A DNA stretch of 64,000 bases from Neisseria mucosa (GTDB taxonomy: Bacteria > Pseudomonadota > Gammaproteobacteria > Burkholderiales > Neisseriaceae): NCBI RefSeq assembly GCF_013267835.1, contig NZ_CP053939.1:1674001-1738000 (forward strand), written 5' to 3'. This document shows, piece by piece, positions 7,436-53,276 of the stretch. The notes under the pieces were generated by a model, which made no database searches, was not told the origin of the DNA, and saw only the letters and a list, made by a program, of their open reading frames with translations. Made by a program: the position numbers and the translations under genes. Position 1 is the first letter of the stretch. The number at the start of each line of letters is the position of its first letter.

Positions 7436-7467
7436 AAAAGGCCGTCTGAATATTCAGACGGCCTTTT
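7436..7467 (+). terminator. DUS inverted-repeat terminator after oxyR
   Basis: AAAAGGCCGTCTGAA pairs with TTCAGACGGCCTTTT over a 2-nt loop, followed by a T-run. A strong intrinsic terminator made of two AG-DUS. It could also serve the converging lipoprotein gene at 7489. Confidence 0.9.
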
Positions 7468-7488
7468 TATTTTTAACCGAATAAAGGA

Positions 7489-7701
7489 TTAGTAGCGGGT
7501 ATGAACTTGACTGCCGATAACGCCACCCAAAGCCGCGCCACCCAAGGTAGAGCCGGTATCGCCACCAATCAAATTACCTGCCACGCCGCCCAATACCGCA
7601 CCAGCAGCAGTGTTGCGTTGGGTTTGAGTCATATTGGCACACGCGCCCAAAGAAGCGGCCAGCATGATCAAGGTCACAGTTTTTGCAAAAGTTTTCTTCA
7701 T
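7489..7701 (-). CDS. Glycine-zipper lipoprotein
   Basis: 70-residue predicted outer-membrane lipoprotein. A lipoprotein signal peptide (KKTFAKTVTLIMLAASLGAC) ends in a lipobox with acylated Cys21. The rest is a glycine zipper: GAVLGGVAGNLIGGDTGSTL then GGAALGGVIGSQV, similar to SlyB/17-kDa antigen-type 2TM domains. I chose the ATG at 7701, which has GGAG 9 nt upstream, over the in-frame ATG 15 bp earlier. Function unknown; envelope integrity is the usual association. Confidence 0.85.
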   Translation of the reverse strand: MKKTFAKTVTLIMLAASLGACANMTQTQRNTAAGAVLGGVAGNLIGGDTGSTLGGAALGGVIGSQVHTRY

Positions 7702-7913
7702 GGTTTGATTCTCCATCAGGGGTTAAGCTTTATATAGAACAGTATGGCACAACCTTTCATTAATATATTTTCTGATAAGTAAAGACAGATTAAACTAAGA
7801 TAACGCCCTTGACGAACGGTTAAATGCAAAAACAAACGGCAATTCCAAAAGAATATTTATAAAATTTAATATATTTGGCATAAAATTGCGCATACATCAA
7901 CTGTATTCGGTAG

Positions 7914-7922
7914 TGATACAAT
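7914..7922 (+). promoter_or_regulatory. Candidate extended -10 promoter
   Basis: TGATACAAT (TGnTACAAT, an extended -10) lies 33 bp before the ATG of the CopD-like gene; no good -35 box is seen. Confidence 0.4.
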
Positions 7923-7955
7923 GACGACTTGTCTGAATTACCGGAAACACCCGTC

Positions 7956-8405
7956 ATGAGTATCTACGCACTGGCACACATCATCCACGTTTATTGCGCG
8001 ATTGCCTTTGTCGGCGGCGTATTTTTCGAAATGCTGGTCCTCTCCGTTTTACACACCGGCCGCGTTTCGCGCGAATCGCGCCGCGAAGTCGAACGTGCCA
8101 TGTCCTATCGTGCCGTCCGCGTGATGCCGCCTGTCGTCATTACCCTGTTCATCAGCGGCATCGTGATGGTGTACAACCGCTACCTGCCGATACTGCACCA
8201 CCCATTCGACAGCTCCTTCGGCATCATGCTGAGCATCAAAATCCTGTTGGCAGTAAGCGTTTTGGTACATTTTGTCATCGCCGTCGTCAAAATGGCACGG
8301 CACACCCTCACCGTCGGCTGGTCGAAATACATACACGCCGTCGTATTCAGCCATATGCTGTTTATCGTCTTTTTTGCCAAAGCAATGTTCTACCTGTCTT
8401 GGTAA
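7956..8405 (+). CDS. CopD-like integral membrane protein
   Basis: 149-residue membrane protein with about four hydrophobic segments: SIYALAHIIHVYCAIAFVGG, VMPPVVITLFISGIVMVY, GIMLSIKILLAVSVLVHFVI and AVVFSHMLFIVFFAKAMFYL. Conserved His residues in helices one and four (HIIHVY, FSH) resemble CopD/DUF2269-type proteins that may bind heme or copper. I start at the ATG at 7956, with GGAA 11 nt upstream, rather than an in-frame TTG at 7929. The TerC-like gene follows after 33 bp and may be cotranscribed. Function not established. Confidence 0.7.
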   Translation: MSIYALAHIIHVYCAIAFVGGVFFEMLVLSVLHTGRVSRESRREVERAMSYRAVRVMPPVVITLFISGIVMVYNRYLPILHHPFDSSFGIMLSIKILLAVSVLVHFVIAVVKMARHTLTVGWSKYIHAVVFSHMLFIVFFAKAMFYLSW

Positions 8406-8438
8406 ACCTTACCCTTCCCCCACACACAAGGATTGTTT

Positions 8439-9413
8439 ATGACCCAATACCCGTCCGTCGGCTCGCCGATGTTTTACGGCATCTTCTTTATTGCCGTCTT
8501 AATCATGATCGCCATCGATATGGTGTCGCTGAAAAAAAATGGCGTCCACAAAGTCAGCATTAAAGAAGCCCTCGCTTGGAGTGGCATTTGGGTGGCCGTA
8601 TCCTGCGCATTTGCCGGCTGGCTCTATTTCGAACTGGCGGGCAACCCGGCTTACGGTGCCGCTGTCGCCAAAGAAAAAGTCCTCGAATTCTTCACCGGCT
8701 ATGTGCTCGAAAAATCCCTTGCCGTCGACAACATCTTCGTTTTCCTGATGATTTTCGGCTACTTCAAAGTCGAACCCAAATTCCAACACCGCGTCTTGCT
8801 CTATGGCGTATTCGGCGCCATCGTCCTGCGCGCCATCATGATTTTCATCGGCGCGGCACTGGTACAGCAATTTGAATGGATTCTTTACCTTTTCGGTGCA
8901 TTCCTGCTCTATACCGGCATCCACATGATGAAACCCGAATCGGAAGAAGAGGAAGACCTTTCCCAAAACAAAATCCTGACCCTGCTCAAAAAAGTCATCC
9001 CGACCAGCCCACAGTTTGACGGTGAAAAATTCTTTACCATTGAAAACGGCAAACGCATCGCTACGCCGCTTTTACTGGTATTGATTATGATCGAATTGAG
9101 CGACGTCATCTTCGCCGTGGACAGCATTCCCGCTATTTTTGCCGTCACCACCGACCCGTTCATCGTCCTTACCTCCAACATTTTTGCCATTTTAGGCCTG
9201 CGTGCCATGTACTTTTTGCTGGCGGATTTTGCCGAACGCTTTATCTTCCTCAAATACGGCTTGGCCTTCGTGTTAAGTTTTATCGGTATCAAGATGCTGA
9301 TTATGCACTGGGTGCATATCCCGATTTCCATTTCCCTATCCGTCGTCTTCGGCGCACTGGGCGCATCCATCCTGACTTCTTTGGTGTACACGCGTCAGCA
9401 AGAAAAAAAATAA
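8439..9413 (+). CDS. TerC family integral membrane protein (Alx-like)
   Basis: 324-residue TerC-family protein; relatives export manganese or protect against metal or tellurite stress. Eight or so membrane segments. The typical acidic motifs are present: EKSLAVDNIFVFLMIF (about 89-104) and MIELSDVIFAVDSIPAIFAV (about 213-232), whose Asp and Glu residues likely bind the metal. A charged cytoplasmic loop (PESEEEEDLSQNK) lies between the halves. Start at the ATG 6 nt after AAGGA; the in-frame TTG upstream is less likely. A DUS terminator follows. Confidence 0.9.
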   Translation: MTQYPSVGSPMFYGIFFIAVLIMIAIDMVSLKKNGVHKVSIKEALAWSGIWVAVSCAFAGWLYFELAGNPAYGAAVAKEKVLEFFTGYVLEKSLAVDNIFVFLMIFGYFKVEPKFQHRVLLYGVFGAIVLRAIMIFIGAALVQQFEWILYLFGAFLLYTGIHMMKPESEEEEDLSQNKILTLLKKVIPTSPQFDGEKFFTIENGKRIATPLLLVLIMIELSDVIFAVDSIPAIFAVTTDPFIVLTSNIFAILGLRAMYFLLADFAERFIFLKYGLAFVLSFIGIKMLIMHWVHIPISISLSVVFGALGASILTSLVYTRQQEKK

Positions 9414-9425
9414 TCCGCCGATACA

Positions 9426-9464
9426 AAAAGGCCGTCTGAAAAACATTTTTTCAGACGGCCTTTT
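9426..9464 (+). terminator. DUS inverted-repeat terminator
   Basis: AAAAGGCCGTCTGAAAAA and TTTTTCAGACGGCCTTTT form a long stem between two convergent genes, so it probably works in both directions. Confidence 0.9.
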
Positions 9465-9482
9465 CAAATATCGGACACCGGC

Positions 9483-9914
9483 TTATTTAGCAGCATCTTT
9501 CAATTTGTCGGCAGCTTCTTGAGTTGCATCGGCAGCTTTACCCAAAGCATCTTTAGCCGCATCTTTGGCAGCGTCTTTAGCTTCGCCCACAGCAGCTTTT
9601 GCATCGTCCAAAGCTTTGTCGCTGGCTTCTTTAGCACCATCGATGGCTTTACCGGTAGTTTCTTTAGCATCGGAAATTGCTTTCTCCGCAGTTTCCTTCG
9701 CATCGGCACCGGCTTCTTTAGCGTCAGAAACAGCCTGTTCAGCAGCGCCTTTAGCTTCGGAAGCAGCAGCATCAGCAGCAGAAGCCGCGTGTTCGGCAGC
9801 AGCGTTCACATCAGAAGCAACGGCAGAAGCCGCTTCTTGAGTTTCCTGTTTCGCCTCTTGAGAACAAGCAGCCAAACCAGCCACCATCATCGCAGCAATC
9901 AATAATTTTTTCAT
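9483..9914 (-). CDS. Ala/Lys-rich repetitive lipoprotein (Ag473-like)
   Basis: 143-residue lipoprotein. The signal peptide KKLLIAAMMVAGLAAC ends in a lipobox with Cys17. The mature part is almost all Ala, Lys, Glu and Asp in repeating helical units such as SDAKEAGADAKETAEKAI, SDAKETTGKAIDGAKEASDK and GEAKDAAKDAAKDALGKAAD, an 11-residue periodicity expected to form long amphipathic helices like LEA or apolipoprotein repeats. From recall it resembles the small meningococcal lipoprotein NMB1468 (Ag473), especially at both ends; the middle is longer here. Surface or periplasmic location; function unknown. Confidence 0.82.
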   Translation of the reverse strand: MKKLLIAAMMVAGLAACSQEAKQETQEAASAVASDVNAAAEHAASAADAAASEAKGAAEQAVSDAKEAGADAKETAEKAISDAKETTGKAIDGAKEASDKALDDAKAAVGEAKDAAKDAAKDALGKAADATQEAADKLKDAAK

Positions 9915-13880: not shown

Positions 13881-15305
13881 ATGGATCAATTTTTCGAACA
13901 GCTTCACGGCTGGGTAAACGCCATCAACGACCCAATGTGGTCGGGATTGGTATATATGCTTTTAGGCGCAGGCCTATTTTTTACCATTACCACCGGTTTT
14001 GTACAATTCCGCCTCTTTGGGCGCAGTATCAAAGAAATGCTGGGCGGCCGCAAACAAGGTGATGATCCGCACGGAATCACACCGTTCCAAGCATTCGTTA
14101 CCGGCTTGGCCAGCCGCGTAGGCGTAGGCAACATCGCCGGCGTGGCGATTGCCATCAAACTCGGCGGGCCGGGCGCGGTATTCTGGATGTGGGTAACCGC
14201 CTTAATCGGCATGAGTTCGGCGTTTGTCGAATCTTCACTGGCCCAACTCTTTAAAGTCCGGGACTACGACAACCACCACTTCCGCGGCGGTCCTGCCTAC
14301 TACATCACTCAAGGCCTGGGACAAAAATGGCTGGGCATTTTGTTCGCCCTGAGCCTGATTTTCTGTTTCGGCTTTGTATTTGAAGCCGTACAGACCAATA
14401 CCATCGCCGATACCACCAAAGCGGCATGGGGCTGGGATCAACACTATGTCGGTGTCGCCCTGGTCATTCTGACTGCCCCGATTATCTTCGGCGGTATCCG
14501 TCGCGTATCTAAAGCCGCGGAAATTATCGTTCCGCTGATGGCGGTTTTATATCTCGTCATAGCACTCTTCATCATTGCTACCAATATTTCCCTGATTCCT
14601 GGCGTGTTCGGTCAGATTTTCTCCAACGCGTTCAACTTTGATTCGGCTGCAGGCGGTTTCCTCGGCGGTCTGATTTCGACCACCATGATGCAGGGTATCA
14701 AACGCGGCCTGTATTCCAATGAGGCGGGTATGGGTTCCGCGCCGAACGCCGCAGCCGCAGCCGAAGTAAAACACCCCGTCTCCCAAGGCATGATTCAAAT
14801 GCTGGGCGTTTTCGTCGATACCATCATCGTCTGCTCATGCACCGCCTTTATCGTCTTGACCTATCAACAGCCTTACGGCGACCTGAGCGGTGCGGCGCTG
14901 ACCCAAGCGGCAATCGTCAGCCAGGTAGGCGAATGGGGCGCGGGCTTCCTTGCTGCCATCCTGTTTATGTTTGCCTTTTCAACCGTTATCGGCAACTATG
15001 CCTATGCCGAGTCCAACGTCCAATTCATCAAGAGCCATTGGCTGGTTACCGCCGTTTTCCGTATGCTGGTTTTGGCATGGGTCTACTTCGGCGCAGTTGC
15101 CAACGTACCCTTGGTATGGGATATGGCAGACATGGCCATGGGCATCATGGCATGGATTAACCTCGTTGCCATCCTGCTCCTGTCCCCACTTGCCTTCCTG
15201 CTGTTGAAAGACTACACAGCCAAGCTGAAAATGGGCAAAGACCCAGAGTTCAAACTCTCCGAACACCCTGGCTTGAAACGCAAAATCAAATCCGATATCT
15301 GGTAA
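13881..15305 (+). CDS. Alanine/glycine:cation symporter (AGCS family), copy 2
   Basis: 474-residue inner-membrane symporter of the same family as the gene at 626-2017 but clearly diverged from it. Signatures: NIAGVAIAIKLGGPGAVFWM (about 91-110), a charged loop VRDYDNHHFRGGPAYYITQG, and YSNEAGMGSAPNAAAAAEVK (about 278-297). Ten or more membrane segments. The C-terminal tail is basic and cytoplasmic. Located as a single-gene unit with its own DUS terminator. Two AGCS transporters in one window suggests different amino-acid or cation preference; not resolvable from sequence. Confidence 0.92.
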   Translation: MDQFFEQLHGWVNAINDPMWSGLVYMLLGAGLFFTITTGFVQFRLFGRSIKEMLGGRKQGDDPHGITPFQAFVTGLASRVGVGNIAGVAIAIKLGGPGAVFWMWVTALIGMSSAFVESSLAQLFKVRDYDNHHFRGGPAYYITQGLGQKWLGILFALSLIFCFGFVFEAVQTNTIADTTKAAWGWDQHYVGVALVILTAPIIFGGIRRVSKAAEIIVPLMAVLYLVIALFIIATNISLIPGVFGQIFSNAFNFDSAAGGFLGGLISTTMMQGIKRGLYSNEAGMGSAPNAAAAAEVKHPVSQGMIQMLGVFVDTIIVCSCTAFIVLTYQQPYGDLSGAALTQAAIVSQVGEWGAGFLAAILFMFAFSTVIGNYAYAESNVQFIKSHWLVTAVFRMLVLAWVYFGAVANVPLVWDMADMAMGIMAWINLVAILLLSPLAFLLLKDYTAKLKMGKDPEFKLSEHPGLKRKIKSDIW

Positions 15306-15308
15306 AAC

Positions 15309-15342
15309 CAAAGGCCGTCTGAAACTTCAGACGGCCTTTTTA
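15309..15342 (+). terminator. DUS inverted-repeat terminator
   Basis: CAAAGGCCGTCTGAA and TTCAGACGGCCTTTTT over a 2-nt loop, directly after the symporter stop. It marks the left border of the CRISPR relic. Confidence 0.9.
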
Positions 15343-15358
15343 ATCCCTGCCATTTAGA

Positions 15359-15425
15359 CAAAACGATGCCCCTTAAAGCAGAAGCCTTAAGGGGCAGAGC
15401 GTTGCGGCACATCTTTTCAGACGGC
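15359..15425 (-). ncRNA. 3' half of a type II-C tracrRNA (remnant)
   Basis: Read on the minus strand, this is the distal half of the Neisseria Cas9 tracrRNA. From the DUS onward it gives AAGGCCGTCTGAAAAGATG, TGCCGCAACGCTCTGCC and the final hairpin with 10-bp arms TGCCCCTTAA/TTAAGGGGCA, then a short T-run (GCATCGTTTTG). It matches the tail of the N. meningitidis sgRNA from recall, apart from a base change in the hairpin loop. The anti-repeat half that should pair with the crRNA repeat is missing: upstream of the DUS the sequence is cas9. As it stands it cannot form a guide duplex. Confidence 0.85.
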
Positions 15426-15936
15426 CTTAAAGAAGGTATCGAAACCCTGCTGATGACGCAACGCCCTGCCTTGTCAGGCGATGCTGTTCAAAAAATGTTG
15501 GGGCATTGCACCTTCGAACCGACAGAGCCGAAAGCCGCTAAAAACACCTACACAGCCGAACGTTTCATCTGGCTGACCAAGCTGAACAACCTGCGTATTT
15601 TAGAGCAAGGCAGCGAGCGGCCATTGACCAATACCGAACGCGCCACGCTTATGGACGAGCCATACAGAAAATCCAAACTGACTTACGCACAAGCCCGTAA
15701 GCTGCTGGGTTTAAAAGATACCGCCTTTTTCAAAGGCTTGCGTTACGGCAAAGACAATGCCGAAGCCTCAACATTGATGGAAATGAAGGCCTACCACGCC
15801 ATCAGCCGTGCGCTGGAAAAAGAAGGTTTGAAAGACAAAAAATCCCCATTAAACCTTTCTCCCGAATTACAAGATGAAATCGGCACGGCATTCTCCCTAT
15901 TCAAAACCGATGAAGACATTACAGGCCGTCTGAAGA
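15416..15936 (+). pseudogene. cas9: cas9 internal fragment (recognition lobe)
   Basis: About 173 codons that match N. meningitidis Cas9 almost residue for residue by recall: [115 protein letters not shown]. This corresponds to roughly residues 230-400 of the 1082-residue protein, in the REC lobe. No start codon of its own, no RuvC Asp, no HNH domain, no PAM-interacting domain. Both ends coincide with DUS: reverse at 15416-15425 and forward at 15925-15934. The fragment is open in frame with an ATG at 15366, but that ATG lies in antisense tracrRNA, so it is not a real start. Confidence 0.93.
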
Positions 15937-15940
15937 CTGA

Positions 15941-16132
15941 ACTGACCCCGGCATCAAACAAAACCTTATCAAGACCCTTCACTGTCAAATCTGCATCGAA
16001 CGGCAGCACTTCAGCACCTTGGCTGCCATCGACAAAATGGTTTCTTCATTTCAAGCCAGCGTAGCCGACAAAAACGCCAAACAGCTGGAATTACCTGAAA
16101 TCTTGCCATTGAAAGAATATCAATATGAATGA
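15941..16132 (+). pseudogene. cas1: cas1 C-terminal fragment
   Basis: About 63 codons in a frame different from the cas9 fragment, ending [20 protein letters not shown] then [17 protein letters not shown] and TGA. The pattern (K-x-x-[18 protein letters not shown]) is that of the C-terminal end of type II Cas1, the integrase of spacer acquisition. Its stop codon overlaps the cas2 start by a few bases, as expected of an intact cas1-cas2 pair. The catalytic part is gone; a TGA at 15938-15940 closes the frame on the left at the DUS junction. Confidence 0.8.
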
Positions 16133-16424
16133 GGCCAAATTTATGAGGATTATCGTCTTCTTCGACCTACCTGTTACCACGGCGGCCAAGCGCAAAGCTG
16201 CCAATCAATTCCGCCAGTTTCTATTAAAAGATGGATACCAAATGCTCCAACTTTCCGTATACAGCCGTATTATCAAAGGTCGAGACTCGTTGCAAAAACA
16301 CCACAATAGGCTATGTGCAAACCTGCCGCAAGAGGGTTCCATCCGCTGTTTGGAAGTAACAGAAAAGCAATATGCCACCATGAAACTACTATTGGGAGAG
16401 CTGAAACCCAAGAAAAAAGGGTAA
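16125..16424 (+). CDS. cas2: CRISPR-associated endonuclease Cas2, C-terminus frameshifted
   Basis: 99 residues of type II Cas2, normally the non-catalytic partner of Cas1 in spacer acquisition. Ferredoxin-like fold with [58 protein letters not shown]. The frame stops after ELKPKKKG, while the -1 frame continues from 16403 as [13 protein letters not shown] to a TAA at 16450, a typical Cas2 tail. A single lost A in the AAA tract near 16405 explains this. The start overlaps the cas1 fragment. With no Cas1 it is unlikely to work in adaptation. Confidence 0.9.
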
Positions 16425-16476
16425 ATTCCGACCAACTATTATTATTTTAAAGCCGCTTTTTTAGACAAAATAAAAC

Positions 16477-16505
16477 GGGAAACCCTTACATAATAAGGGT
16501 TTCCC
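16477..16505. terminator. Perfect 12-bp hairpin between cas2 and the array
   Basis: GGGAAACCCTTA and TAAGGGTTTCCC with a 5-nt loop. On the minus strand it is followed by a T-rich stretch (GTTTTATTTTG), so it could end transcription of crRNAs read from the array toward cas2. Confidence 0.6.
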
Positions 16506-16513
16506 ATTGAGAC

Positions 16514-16614
16514 ATTGTAGCACTGCGAAATGAGAAAGGGAGCTACAACTATATCTCCCCATTGAACGAAACAATAAATTTGTAGTGTTGCAAAATAAAA
16601 TAGAGACTTCCTAA
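16514..16614 (-). CRISPR. Minimal type II-C array: one intact repeat, one spacer, one decayed repeat
   Basis: The 36-nt segment 16514-16549, read on the minus strand, begins GTTGTAGCTCCC and ends GTGCTACAAT: the N. meningitidis type II-C repeat, including the extended -10 element (TGCTACAAT) that lets each repeat drive its own crRNA. A spacer of about 30 nt follows (16550-16579). A second repeat (about 16579-16614) keeps roughly 22 of 36 bases; its promoter-like end has decayed. No further repeats before the rplQ terminator. Spacer target unknown. Confidence 0.9.
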
Positions 16615-16616
16615 AT

Positions 16617-49371: not shown

Positions 49372-49944
49372 CTATTCAGCAACTTGCGAATAGAGCAACA
49401 ATTCAAACTTACTCATTCCCGCCTTTCCTTCCCGATAAATTTCCAGCCAATCCGGTTTTTCAGGCACCTTCCCTGCTTCAATATAGACCATTGCCCCATT
49501 TTTCAAGTGGCTTTGCAATCGGATAAAAAGATTTTGCCAATCTTCCCATGCAAACGGCGGATCAAGGAACACAACATCAAATTTTTCAGACGGCCTTGTC
49601 AAATAAGCCATGCCGTCTGAACACACGATTTCCACCTGCCTCAAGCCTAATTCACGAACATTTTTCTGAAGTGTTTGCACAGTTTGGCGGTGGTTATCGA
49701 CCATTACCACTTTTGCCGCATGACGAGAAGCAGCCTCCATTCCCAAAGCACCACTACCGCTGAATAAATCCAATACTGTTTTGCCGGTTAAATCCTGACC
49801 CAACCAGTTAAACAGTTTTTCACGCACGCTGTCAGGTGTCGGACGCAAACCATCTGCGGACAGAAAAGTTAACTTTCGTCCCCTACATTGCCCGCCAATG
49901 ATGCGTACTTGATTGGTGTGTTTGGAATGTTTGTTATTTGCCAT
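49372..49944 (-). CDS. rsmD: 16S rRNA (guanine-966 N2)-methyltransferase RsmD
   Basis: 190 residues, SAM-dependent Rossmann-fold methyltransferase. RIIGGQCRGRKLTF near the start, SAM motif LDLFSGSGALGMEAASRHA (about 59-77) and catalytic motif VVFLDPPFAWED (about 124-135). One DUS reads ATGCCGTCTGAA (on the plus strand near 49611) within the gene and an AG-DUS occurs nearby, in VCSDGMAYLTRPSEKF. Confidence 0.93.
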   Translation of the reverse strand: MANNKHSKHTNQVRIIGGQCRGRKLTFLSADGLRPTPDSVREKLFNWLGQDLTGKTVLDLFSGSGALGMEAASRHAAKVVMVDNHRQTVQTLQKNVRELGLRQVEIVCSDGMAYLTRPSEKFDVVFLDPPFAWEDWQNLFIRLQSHLKNGAMVYIEAGKVPEKPDWLEIYREGKAGMSKFELLLYSQVAE

Positions 49945-50034: not shown

Positions 50035-50069
50035 AAAAGGTCGTCTGAAAATTTTTCAGACGACCTTTT
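50035..50069. repeat. GGTCGTCTGAA hairpin, left border of a cassette
   Basis: AAAAGGTCGTCTGAAAA and its exact reverse complement with a 1-2 nt loop. Both arms carry the AG-mucDUS dialect (AGGTCGTCTGAA) rather than the AG-DUS common elsewhere in the window. Confidence 0.88.
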
Positions 50070-50079
50070 CAGTTTGAAT

Positions 50080-50107
50080 TTGACGACATGAAATACTGAA
50101 CTATGTT
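50080..50107 (+). promoter_or_regulatory. Weak candidate promoter for the UDG-like gene
   Basis: TTGACG (50080-50085) and TATGTT (50102-50107) with a 16-bp spacer, 97 bp before the start codon. The sequence 50070-50203 is AT-rich and otherwise empty. Confidence 0.35.
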
Positions 50108-50203
50108 TCACCGTGAAGTGCGTTTTAAACTTAAACTAGATAAATTACATTTACTTATTTATAATGAGTATTTCTCTGTGAAATGTTTATATAAGTTATT
50201 ATC

Positions 50204-50896
50204 ATGTCAGACCTGAATCTCAGTAACAGTATATTCCAAGGTTACAACGACAAACATGGTTTAATGATTTGTGGGTATGAGTGGGGTTGGAGTAAAGCCG
50301 ATGAGGCTGCTTATGTAGCAGGTGAATACAAACTCCCTGAAAACAAAATCGACCATACATTTGCAAATAAATCCCTCTATTATGGTGAGCAGGCAAAAAA
50401 GTGGCGTTACGACAATACAATAAAAAATTGGTTTGAAATGTGGGGACACCCCTTAGACGAAAATGGATTGGGCGGTGCATTTGAAAAATCCCTGGTTCAA
50501 ACCAACTGGGCAGCTACTCAGGGCAACAAAATCGACAATCCAAACAAATTTCTCCAGCCCGAACACGTCGATAATTTTCTCTACCACATTGAGAAACTAC
50601 GTCCTAAATTGATTCTCTTCATGGGAAGCAACCTGACAAATTATCTTAATTGCGCAAATGTATTGCCGCGCTTCGAGCAGCTTGTCGGAAAACAAACTCA
50701 ACCGCTACGAGTAGTACAAAAAGATTTTAGCGGTACACGTTTCAAAATCAGATTCCAATCGTTTGAAAATTGCGAAGTCGTCTGCCTGCCCCACCCTAGT
50801 GCCAGCCGCGGTCTATCTTACGATTACATAGCCTTATTTGAACCAGAAATGAACCGTATTTTATCGGACTTTAAAACGACACGCGGATTTAAATAA
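50204..50896 (+). CDS. Uracil-DNA-glycosylase-fold protein of unknown function
   Basis: 230 residues. Pattern of the UDG superfamily: an N-terminal strand and loop HGLMICGYEWGWSKADEA (about 18-35) in the place of motif I, a central strand RPKLILFMGSNLTNYLN (about 133-149), and CLPHPSASRGLSYDYIALFE (about 194-213), whose HPS corresponds to the DNA-intercalation motif. No catalytic Asp/His can be assigned with confidence, and many such proteins have no known activity. Codon use is more AT-rich than its neighbours, and the gene lies alone between two GGTCGTCTGAA hairpins, which suggests transfer from another Neisseria lineage. Function not established. Confidence 0.65.
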   Translation: MSDLNLSNSIFQGYNDKHGLMICGYEWGWSKADEAAYVAGEYKLPENKIDHTFANKSLYYGEQAKKWRYDNTIKNWFEMWGHPLDENGLGGAFEKSLVQTNWAATQGNKIDNPNKFLQPEHVDNFLYHIEKLRPKLILFMGSNLTNYLNCANVLPRFEQLVGKQTQPLRVVQKDFSGTRFKIRFQSFENCEVVCLPHPSASRGLSYDYIALFEPEMNRILSDFKTTRGFK

Positions 50897-50910
50897 AATA
50901 ATCACAGAAA

Positions 50911-50949
50911 AGCAAAGGTCGTCTGAAATTTTTTCAGACGACCTTTGCT
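50911..50949. terminator. GGTCGTCTGAA hairpin, right border of the cassette
   Basis: AGCAAAGGTCGTCTGAAA and its exact reverse complement around a 3-4 nt T loop, between convergent genes. A bidirectional terminator for the UDG-like gene and topA, built from AG-mucDUS. Confidence 0.88.
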
Positions 50950-50969: not shown

Positions 50970-53276
50970 TCATTCTTTCGGTGCAGGCGGTTCAACCTGT
51001 TCTTTCCAGCCGCATTCTTTTTGCGGACAGACTTTTTCCACGCCCCAGCGTTTGGTGGTTTTGATAGTTAAAACCGGCCAATGGCAGTTCGGGCATTCTT
51101 CGGCGACGGGCGGGTTCCAGGTGGCGTAGTTGCAGTCGGGATAGGTGCTGCAACTGTAAAACAGTTTGCCGTAGCGGGATTTGCGCTCGACGAGGTTGCC
51201 TTTTTTGCATTGCGGGCATTGGACGCCGGTGTCTTTCGGTTTTTCCAAAGGCTCGACGTGTTTGCATTTCGGATAGTTGGCGCAGCCGATGAATTTGCTA
51301 CCGGTGCGGCTGTATTTGTACACTAAACGACCGCCGCATTTAGGGCATTCGCGTCCGTCGAGTTCGGCTTGCTCTGCTTCCGCTTTGGCGATGCGCTCGG
51401 CGGCTTCTTCGGCGGTTTCGTTAACGTTGCGCGTGTAGCTGCACTCGGGATAGCCGGCACAGGCGACGAAGCGGCCCATTTTGCCGAATTTGATTTGCAG
51501 CTTGTGTTCGCCGCATTTCGGGCAGGTTTCGTCTAGTTCCTGCGTGGTAAATTTGGCGCGTTCGATACCCTCTTTTTCTTCCACTTGCTTGATAAACGGC
51601 TTCCAGAATTTGTCCATTACGGGGATCCATTGGCGTTTGCCGTTGGCAATTTCGTCAAGCTGGTCTTCGAGTTTGGCGGTGAAGTGGTAGTCGACGTATT
51701 GGGCGAAGTGTTCAGTCAGGAATTTGTTGACGATGTCGCCCGTGTCGGTAGGCATGAAGCGTTTTTGCTCAAGGGTAACGTATTCACGGTCTTTGAGCGT
51801 GGAAATAATGCTGGCGTAGGTCGAGGGGCGGCCAATGCCGTATTCTTCGAGGGCTTTAACCAGCGTGGCTTCGTTGTAGCGCGGCGGCGGGGTGGTAAAG
51901 TGTTGTTCGCCGTAGAGTTTGTCCACGGGCAGTTTGTCGCCTTCGCTCATTTCGGGCAGTTTTTTGCTGTCTTCGCCTTCTTCATCGTCGCTGCTTTCTT
52001 CGTAAACGCTGAGGAAGCCTGCGAAGGTTTGTACTTGTCCGGTTACGCGGAATACGCCTTTGCCGACAGTAATATCGACAGTGGTTTGGTCGAATTTGGC
52101 GGGCGTCATCTGACAGGCGACGGTGCGTTGCCAAATCATTTGATAGAGTTTGAACTGGTCTGCGCTCAGGAAGGGTTTGACGCTTTCGGGCGTGCGGTAC
52201 ACGGAAGTCGGACGGATGGCTTCGTGGGCCTCTTGGGCGTTTTTGGATTTGGTTTTGTACTGCTTGGCCGAGCTTGGCAGATATTCTTTGCCGATTTTGT
52301 TTTCGATGTAATGGCGGATTTCGGTTAACGCTTCATCAGCCAAATTCACGCTGTCGGTACGCATATAGGTAATCAGACCGATGGCACCCCGCCCTACGTC
52401 TATACCTTCGTAAAGCTGCTGGGCGGTACGCATGGTGCGGTCGGTGGTAAAACCGAGTTTGCGCACGGCATCCTGCTGCATGGTTGATGTAGTGAACGGC
52501 GCGGCGGGGTTGCGGCTGCGCTTTTTCTTTTCGATGGCGGTAACGACGGCCCCTTTGCCTTCGAGTTCTTTCAACACGTCGGCTTGCGCGGTTTCGTTCG
52601 GCAGGTCGAACTGTTCGAGTTTCGCGCCGTTGTATTGGGCGAGTTTGGCGGTGAATTTGCTGCGGCCTTTGTGGCTGTCGAGATGTACCGTCCAATATTC
52701 CTGCGCTTCAAACGCGCGGATTTCGTTTTCGCGTTCGCAAATCAAACGCAGGGCGGGACTTTGCACACGGCCTGCGCTCAAACCGCGGCGGATCTTTTTC
52801 CACAACAACGGCGAGAGGTTGAAACCGACCAAATAGTCCAAAGCGCGGCGGGCTTGTTGCGCATCGACCAAGTCCATTTCGATTTCGCGCGGATGGGCGA
52901 CGGCATCAAGCACGGCATTTTTGGTGATTTCATGGAACACGACACGCTGCGGCTTGATGTTTTTCAGGCCGCGTTTGGATTTGAGGATTTCCAAAAGATG
53001 CCAGGAAATGGCTTCGCCTTCCCTATCCGGGTCGGTTGCGAGGTAGATGTTTTCGGCTTCTTTGGCACCGGCGACGATGGCATCGACGTGTTTGCTGTTG
53101 CGGCTGATCAGCTGGTACTTCATGGCAAAGCCGTTGTCGGGATCGACTGCTCCGCTTTTGGGTACCAAGTCGCGGACATGACCGTAAGACGCCAAGATTT
53201 CAAAATCACCGCCCAGATATTTTTTCAAGGTTTTGGCTTTGGACGGGGATTCGACGATTAATAGGTTTTTCGCCAT
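50970..53276 (-). CDS. topA: DNA topoisomerase I
   Basis: 768-residue type IA topoisomerase that relaxes negative supercoils. TOPRIM domain at the start (LLIVESPSKAKTLKKYLGG and the DPDREGE metal site), RRALDYLVGFNLSPLLWKKI, and the active-site Tyr in GLITYMRTDSVNL. The C-terminus carries three or four zinc-ribbon repeats (CPKCGEHKLQ, CPKCGGRLVYKY, CPQCKKGNLVER, CPNCHWPVL). Downstream of dprA and smg, the common order. Confidence 0.97.
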   Translation of the reverse strand: MAKNLLIVESPSKAKTLKKYLGGDFEILASYGHVRDLVPKSGAVDPDNGFAMKYQLISRNSKHVDAIVAGAKEAENIYLATDPDREGEAISWHLLEILKSKRGLKNIKPQRVVFHEITKNAVLDAVAHPREIEMDLVDAQQARRALDYLVGFNLSPLLWKKIRRGLSAGRVQSPALRLICERENEIRAFEAQEYWTVHLDSHKGRSKFTAKLAQYNGAKLEQFDLPNETAQADVLKELEGKGAVVTAIEKKKRSRNPAAPFTTSTMQQDAVRKLGFTTDRTMRTAQQLYEGIDVGRGAIGLITYMRTDSVNLADEALTEIRHYIENKIGKEYLPSSAKQYKTKSKNAQEAHEAIRPTSVYRTPESVKPFLSADQFKLYQMIWQRTVACQMTPAKFDQTTVDITVGKGVFRVTGQVQTFAGFLSVYEESSDDEEGEDSKKLPEMSEGDKLPVDKLYGEQHFTTPPPRYNEATLVKALEEYGIGRPSTYASIISTLKDREYVTLEQKRFMPTDTGDIVNKFLTEHFAQYVDYHFTAKLEDQLDEIANGKRQWIPVMDKFWKPFIKQVEEKEGIERAKFTTQELDETCPKCGEHKLQIKFGKMGRFVACAGYPECSYTRNVNETAEEAAERIAKAEAEQAELDGRECPKCGGRLVYKYSRTGSKFIGCANYPKCKHVEPLEKPKDTGVQCPQCKKGNLVERKSRYGKLFYSCSTYPDCNYATWNPPVAEECPNCHWPVLTIKTTKRWGVEKVCPQKECGWKEQVEPPAPKE

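Follow-up and report, generated by a model that had tools for sequence, protein, structure and literature searches.

How was a type II-C CRISPR-Cas locus (clustered regularly interspaced short palindromic repeats and their associated proteins) of a Neisseria mucosa chromosome reduced to about 1.25 kb of fragments, and can the steps of its loss still be read? The question is raised by positions 15359-16615 of the window, that is, the whole stretch of 64,000 nucleotides analysed here (contig NZ_CP053939.1, positions 1,674,001 to 1,738,000), which belongs to a single-contig genome of 2.22 Mb (G000). The remnant sits between an alanine/glycine:cation symporter gene and rplQ. With a probability of roughly 93%, it is a dead type II-C locus that was cut down by three deletions between direct repeats and afterwards suffered point decay. 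The end points of all three can still be placed to the base, and at two of them the DNA uptake sequence (DUS) served as the repeat. As to kind, the remnant is the fossil of an already known system; the new aspects are the exact junctions and the DUS found at two of them.

Pieces of the collapsed locus

The remnant is made up of the following pieces, in which J1 and J2 denote the two internal deletion scars.

15359-15429, minus strand: 3' part of the trans-activating CRISPR RNA (tracrRNA), with a DUS-containing stretch and, at 15367-15396, a hairpin resembling a terminator; the anti-repeat and the part upstream are missing; collinear with loci L063, L064 and L065 up to 15429
15415-15429, minus strand: scar J1, a 15-bp direct repeat holding a DUS, found in both the tracrRNA and the cas9 parent, with a loss of 824 bp between the copies
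15430-15934, plus strand: cas9 fragment that covers approximately residues 230-402 (recognition lobe) of the N. meningitidis-type protein, from collinearity, TIGR01865 and PDB matches
15923-15934, plus strand: scar J2, the 12-bp DUS AGGCCGTCTGAA, found in both the cas9 and the cas1 parent, with a loss of 2,819-2,820 bp
15935-16132, plus strand: C-terminal end of cas1, roughly the final 70 codons out of 304, in which 1 nt is deleted near 15950, from alignment with complete loci
16125 (ATG)-16424 (stop), plus strand: cas2, 99 codons, with a 1-nt deletion near 16404; TIGR01573 match above cut-off
16514-16549, minus strand: one perfect 36-nt type II-C repeat (Rfam RF01344), the scar of array collapse
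16550-16579, minus strand: the single spacer, about 30 nt, a slightly mutated form of which is also present in the related genome G037
16580-16615, minus strand: decayed end repeat with 14 mismatches to the repeat and a changed promoter-like end

The cas9 piece (15415-15934) shows 88-95% identity to the cas9 genes of complete loci found at the same site in related genomes. It matches PDB chains of N. meningitidis-type Cas9 from residue 228 (E 7e-109), the printed alignment running to residue 410 and the junction lying at about residue 402. Against the family model TIGR01865 it covers positions 257-420 of 1,070 with 92 bits, under the cut-off of 100 bits, and it is the only match to this model in G000. 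The RuvC, HNH and protospacer adjacent motif (PAM)-interacting parts are absent from the cas9 remnant, which retains only a portion of the recognition lobe. The cas1 end (15923-16132) and cas2 align to the complete loci as a single block, and no second type II cas1 was found in G000. The C-terminus of the predicted Cas2 is unlike that of the 108-aa protein of the relatives G036 and G014 because the 1-nt deletion replaces its last residues. All 36 positions of the repeat agree with the CRISPR-DR34 consensus of Rfam (E 1.7e-12). The array has no two like repeats. A search for the spacer target in a phage collection gave five records, all weak (E 2-7), and no convincing protospacer; in IMG/VR it gave one contig with an exact 20-base match (about 24 of 30 bases by eye), a level of agreement that chance can produce in one scan of such size.

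In N. meningitidis, promoters are embedded in the CRISPR repeats. Here, transcription of the sole spacer would depend on the promoter-like end of the end repeat, and this repeat has decayed. With no nuclease domain left, the anti-repeat and all tracrRNA sequence upstream lost, both cas1 and cas2 broken and the end repeat decayed, the locus cannot work. Judged from its sequence, the remnant is predicted to carry out no CRISPR interference, and the leftover tracrRNA hairpin may serve at most as a transcription terminator.

The original prediction had recognised pieces of a type II-C system in native order at this place, which the E-values and the collinearity with complete loci bear out to the exclusion of chance, and its statement that no RuvC or HNH domain is left agrees with the span of Cas9 that remains. 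The parts that it named are present, but it had overlooked the frameshifts of cas1 and cas2, the loss of the anti-repeat, and the DUS at both internal junctions. Likewise, its single repeat-spacer unit stands as far as the perfect repeat and the spacer of about 30 nt are concerned, but the end repeat at 16580-16615 and its decay had been missed.

The symporter-rplQ gap in relatives and the three junctions

The genus set that was searched consists of 46 genomes, G000 included, with one genome per species. A match to the Cas9 family was found in 25 of these genomes; 23 lie above the family cut-off, and the two below it are G000 and G037. The gap that holds the remnant is bordered as follows.

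13881-15305: alanine/glycine:cation symporter gene, its name taken from relatives
15310-15341, plus strand: DUS-pair terminator of the symporter gene, an inverted repeat that forms the left border of the slot; the DUS pair is also present in L063, L064 and L065
16662-17036, minus strand: rplQ

Three relatives, G036, G035 and G014, carry a complete locus in the same gap, with the cas9 and cas1 frames open in all three. Cas9 is 1,081 aa long in G036 and 1,082 aa in G014, with Cas1 of 304 aa and Cas2 of 108 aa in both. Counting the decayed end repeat, the arrays hold 21 repeats in G036, 7 in G035 and 28 in G014, and the loci are 5.3-6.7 kb long against about 1.25 kb in the window. In G037 (L066) the gap contains a smaller and different remnant, in which some 242 bp of cas9 and some 22 nt of the repeat precede the spacer and the end repeat. 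Hence three complete and two collapsed alleles are found in the five genomes that have the gap; neither an empty allele nor an alternative gene cassette was found among these five. The comparison of the rplQ flank covered 44 of the 46 genomes (G010 and G013 were left out owing to contig ends). In the 39 further genomes no symporter match was found beside rplQ within the approximately 4.5 kb fetched beyond it, and their cas loci, if any, lie elsewhere. The symporter-rplQ site is particular to the five-genome group.

Whichever of G036, G035 and G014 it is compared with, the alignment of the window is interrupted at three shared positions. From 15000 to 15429, including the tracrRNA tail, the alignment is unbroken at 97.7-97.9% identity. 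In the three relatives the DUS of the tracrRNA is followed directly by the anti-repeat, whose complementarity to the repeat is 88.6%; at this point the window switches to cas9 and the anti-repeat is gone. At J1 (tracrRNA/cas9) both parents share TTTCAGACGGCCTTA, which is a DUS in minus orientation with flanking bases, and at J2 (cas9/cas1) both share the DUS in plus orientation. At the third junction the cas2-side repeat of the array is fused to the rplQ-side repeat, which leaves the window 294-1,680 bp shorter here than the relatives. All three pairwise comparisons give junction overlaps of 15, 12 and 36-37 bp, and each of the three junctions has one repeat copy where the parent has two. Among the 12 loci compared, the four parental DUS are free of mismatches in G035 and G009, while G036 and G014 each have a single mismatch in one of the four, at J2 and J1, respectively.

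The prediction that a complete locus once stood here thus agrees with the three relatives that carry one in the same gap, and alignment to complete neisserial loci gave full collinearity. Two internal deletions had been proposed; these are J1 and J2, but a third had escaped notice, for the array retains the spacer and the decayed end repeat and must therefore have lost its interior as well. Of the intact, empty and collapsed alleles for which it had proposed to examine the gap, the intact and the collapsed ones were found.

Within the tracrRNA-cas2 region of G036 and G035, no exact direct repeat exceeds the J1 pair, which shares first place at 15 bp in each; owing to its mismatch it is not among the exact repeats of G014. 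DUS make up 10 of 14, 13 of 15 and 10 of 11 of the direct-repeat pairs of at least 12 bp in the three complete loci. For two end points placed at random, the frequency of lying in a direct repeat of at least 12 bp is 1.3-1.8e-5. Two repeat junctions are thus very unlikely to arise by chance, which implies that the deletions used repeats, here DUS. The complete set of tracrRNA, cas9, cas1, cas2 and array that stands in the gap of the three near relatives has here been shortened by three deletions between direct repeats, one at the 15-bp DUS-bearing pair, one at the 12-bp DUS pair and one at the 36-nt CRISPR repeats. Ordinary slippage of strands or single-strand annealing at the repeats probably produced them, or else recombination in which the partner was imported DNA. 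In this reading, DUS would have served at the junctions because they are the commonest repeats of at least 12 bp in these chromosomes. The frameshifts of cas1 and cas2 and the decay of the end repeat would be later point changes.

Weighing the DUS and the competing explanations

Whether DUS bound deletions elsewhere was addressed with an indel scan of approximately 264 kb around the site in G000, G036, G014 and G035, in which all six pairs were compared for clean indels of at least 80 bp. The scan aligned 158-234 kb per pair and excluded replacements, matches below 150 bp and gaps of at least 15 kb, and it is therefore not a full census. Manual merging of its 36 rows gave 18 sites. At seven of the 18, namely J1, J2 and five others, an exact DUS core lies within a shared repeat of at least 12 bp. 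Shared repeats of this length occur at ten sites in total; besides the seven with DUS, these are the CRISPR array, a 58-bp overlap and one 15-bp site (in one of two comparisons).

Several observations weigh against a deletion route of this kind, or at least against a special part for the DUS in it. DUS account for about 60% of all chance direct repeats of at least 12 bp at 200-3,000 bp spacing in the same stretches; set against this baseline, seven of ten repeat-bounded sites is no clear excess, and a DUS-specific process is therefore not shown. The J2 pair measures 13 bp in G035 and G014 and is not the longest repeat of the locus. The junctions of G037 have a homology of 0 and 2-3 bp, from which it follows that the locus can collapse without DUS. 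Finally, neutral decay after the collapse is not visible in the cas9 fragment, whose ratio of nonsynonymous to synonymous substitution rates (dN/dS) is 0.061-0.095 against seven complete loci; values among the complete loci are 0.063-0.28 and that of the G037 piece against the window is 0.244, so that the fragment lies within or near the complete-locus range. The low ratio of the window piece implies that most of its changes are older than the collapse. Given the 60% baseline, the DUS look like abundant ordinary deletion substrates rather than a dedicated system.

The most probable of the rival explanations is that the window and G037 descend from one ancestral collapse, G037 being merely more decayed. 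The terminal spacer and the decayed end repeat are common to both, and the cas9 piece of G037 lies within the span of the window piece. Yet the G037 piece is of a different allele type (INQPYKKK vs DEPYRKSK; 89% identity) and its junctions differ from those of the window, and a shared event is, on balance, doubtful.

A transformation event, in which an incoming fragment aligned at flanking DUS and replaced the interior, the uptake tag acting as a homology arm, is less probable still. It is established that Neisseria take up DUS-bearing DNA, and at another slot of the window (50069-50914) three contents of differing length and two empty alleles lie between DUS terminators. However, 12-15 bp are known to be far under the usual length for efficient homologous recombination, and neither J1 nor J2 contains a foreign insert, both being plain deletions. 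As for the type I-C system of these genomes as a cause of the loss, the I-C spacers of four genomes gave matches of only 11-15 nt to the II-C loci among the matches listed, a weak negative result.

The collapsed allele itself is not confined to the window. A protein search with length limits that exclude full-length Cas9 gave 15 proteins, two of which, P0001 (232 aa, 65 members) and P0002 (255 aa, 22 members), start in the tracrRNA tail and cross J1 and J2; hence the same double-scarred allele occurs in other assemblies. Of the other 13 proteins, the nine that were read do not have both scars. After J2, P0001 is in the shifted frame of the window and P0002 continues in frame into Cas1, and P0002 shares substitutions with P0001. 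The member counts of 65 and 22 against 2,334 for the 97%-identical cluster of the symporter refer to differently clustered proteins and are not an allele frequency. The collapse is recent relative to the divergence of these species, yet is present in more than one lineage.

That the DUS deletions fused the antisense tracrRNA tail, the Cas9 recognition-lobe piece and the Cas1 end into a new small gene, kept for a function such as RNA binding or the blocking of incoming Cas9, is highly improbable: P0002 does read all three parts in one frame, P0001 matches the window frame over its full length and that frame is open from 15306 to 16064, but the window, and P0001 as judged by its protein, leave the Cas1 frame directly after J2, the G037 piece contains a stop codon, and the predicted proteins, with putative start regions, stem from gene callers.

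Known systems, implications and neighbouring observations

Compared with the II-C loci of N. meningitidis and N. lactamica, the remnant shares the gene order, the tracrRNA tail and the Cas9 family, and its repeat is the N. lactamica repeat given in the accessible part of PMC4607530, where the protein lengths of G014 (1,082/304/108) recur likewise. It differs from them in having no nuclease domains, no anti-repeat, one spacer, and broken cas1 and cas2. The place of the meningococcal scaRNA gene with respect to the parts deleted here was looked for in passages of PMC13431127 and was not found there. The same source, in that part, describes for Campylobacter jejuni a II-C locus with a fixed neighbourhood that is missing from some strains; most of the negative strains there hold other genes or a transposase gene, whereas here pieces and junctions persist. 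Absence of the II-C system is common: according to the available portion of PMC9238386, 862 of 1,894 N. meningitidis genomes have II-C arrays and 630 N. gonorrhoeae genomes have no arrays. Similarly, the excerpt of PMC7643975 covers four throat isolates (N. subflava and N. cinerea); arrays were called in two of them and not in the other two. The minimal mobile elements of Neisseria, as set out in the excerpted text of PMC3082526, also have two conserved genes with content between them that varies by genome, but the gap studied here holds complete and degraded forms of one locus, not whole-gene cassettes.

Treangen et al., 2008 (PMC2397512) likewise deal with DUS, gene loss and genome stability, as far as the portion at hand extends; in the present case the DUS are the deletion end points themselves. 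Set against that portion, the collapsed locus is a counter-example in kind, and no proof of a general effect. A role of the DUS as a deletion substrate is not described in the sections of the DUS literature compared, and DUS-bounded loss of a CRISPR locus was not found among the matches listed for titles and abstract beginnings of the Creative Commons (CC)-licensed literature.

Dead CRISPR loci are common, and the use of this one lies in readable loss events together with complete alleles at the same site, which make it a direct case of the DNA uptake sequence as a deletion substrate. As a tentative extension, somewhat against the odds, DUS-to-DUS deletion could be a general route of gene loss in Neisseria, a tag every approximately 0.8 kb letting accessory loci be excised precisely. 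With the same reserve, those loci might include the CRISPR systems proposed to limit transformation. If true, the tag used for transformation would also seed the chromosome with direct repeats for precise excision. It is testable whether many identical 12-mers cost genome stability and bias which genes go. Moreover, the double-scarred allele can be recognised in metagenome assemblies by one protein sequence.

The 64-kb window contains 44 exact copies of the DUS dialect AG-DUS and 3 of AT-DUS, which would place it on the commensal N. subflava/flavescens side of the genus. Among the 120 symporter matches listed, those that carry organism names have 88-91% identity. The DUS inside the tracrRNA (window 15415-15429; loci L063-L065, L067-L069 and L073) is unchanged in seven of 12 loci, one 12-mer being both a part of the RNA and an uptake tag. 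The direction of change, loss or gain, was addressed for only one of the five further DUS-bounded sites (G000:C1 ~1617043), where G000 is without 2.26-2.44 kb found in all three relatives and has a 17-bp DUS at the junction; in G036 the segment (L244 ~7450-9700) covers two open reading frames (ORFs) that, by eye, resemble parts of one TonB-dependent receptor. Another of the five is the slot 50069-50914, between a gene at 49372-49944 and a topoisomerase-I-like gene (by eye) at 50970-53276. Flanked by DUS-pair terminators, it contains about 0.84 kb here (a 230-aa ORF), 1.72 kb in G014 and 1.3 kb in G035, and is empty in G036 and G037. This slot conforms better than the symporter-rplQ gap to the definition of a minimal mobile element in the excerpt of PMC3082526. 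At two sites in G014, elements of about 1.2 kb with like ends are each inserted within a DUS (AGGCCG before, TCTGAA after), as if the uptake sequence were a preferred target.

Other CRISPR loci accompany the remnant in the genus. For example, G000 has a type I-C locus (cas3, cas5c, cas8c, cas7 and cas1 at G000:C1 ~483-496 kb, with 16 repeats), and the genome is therefore not CRISPR-free. A HerA-like helicase gene lies between cas3 and cas5c of this locus (L196, G000:C1:482000-501000), and its 16 repeats compare with 64 in G036, 68 in G014 and 66 in G037 in the stretches compared. In G038, a second Cas9-Cas1 locus with lower scores (585 and 249 bits; L076, G038:C1:422500-433500) is found beside the main one.
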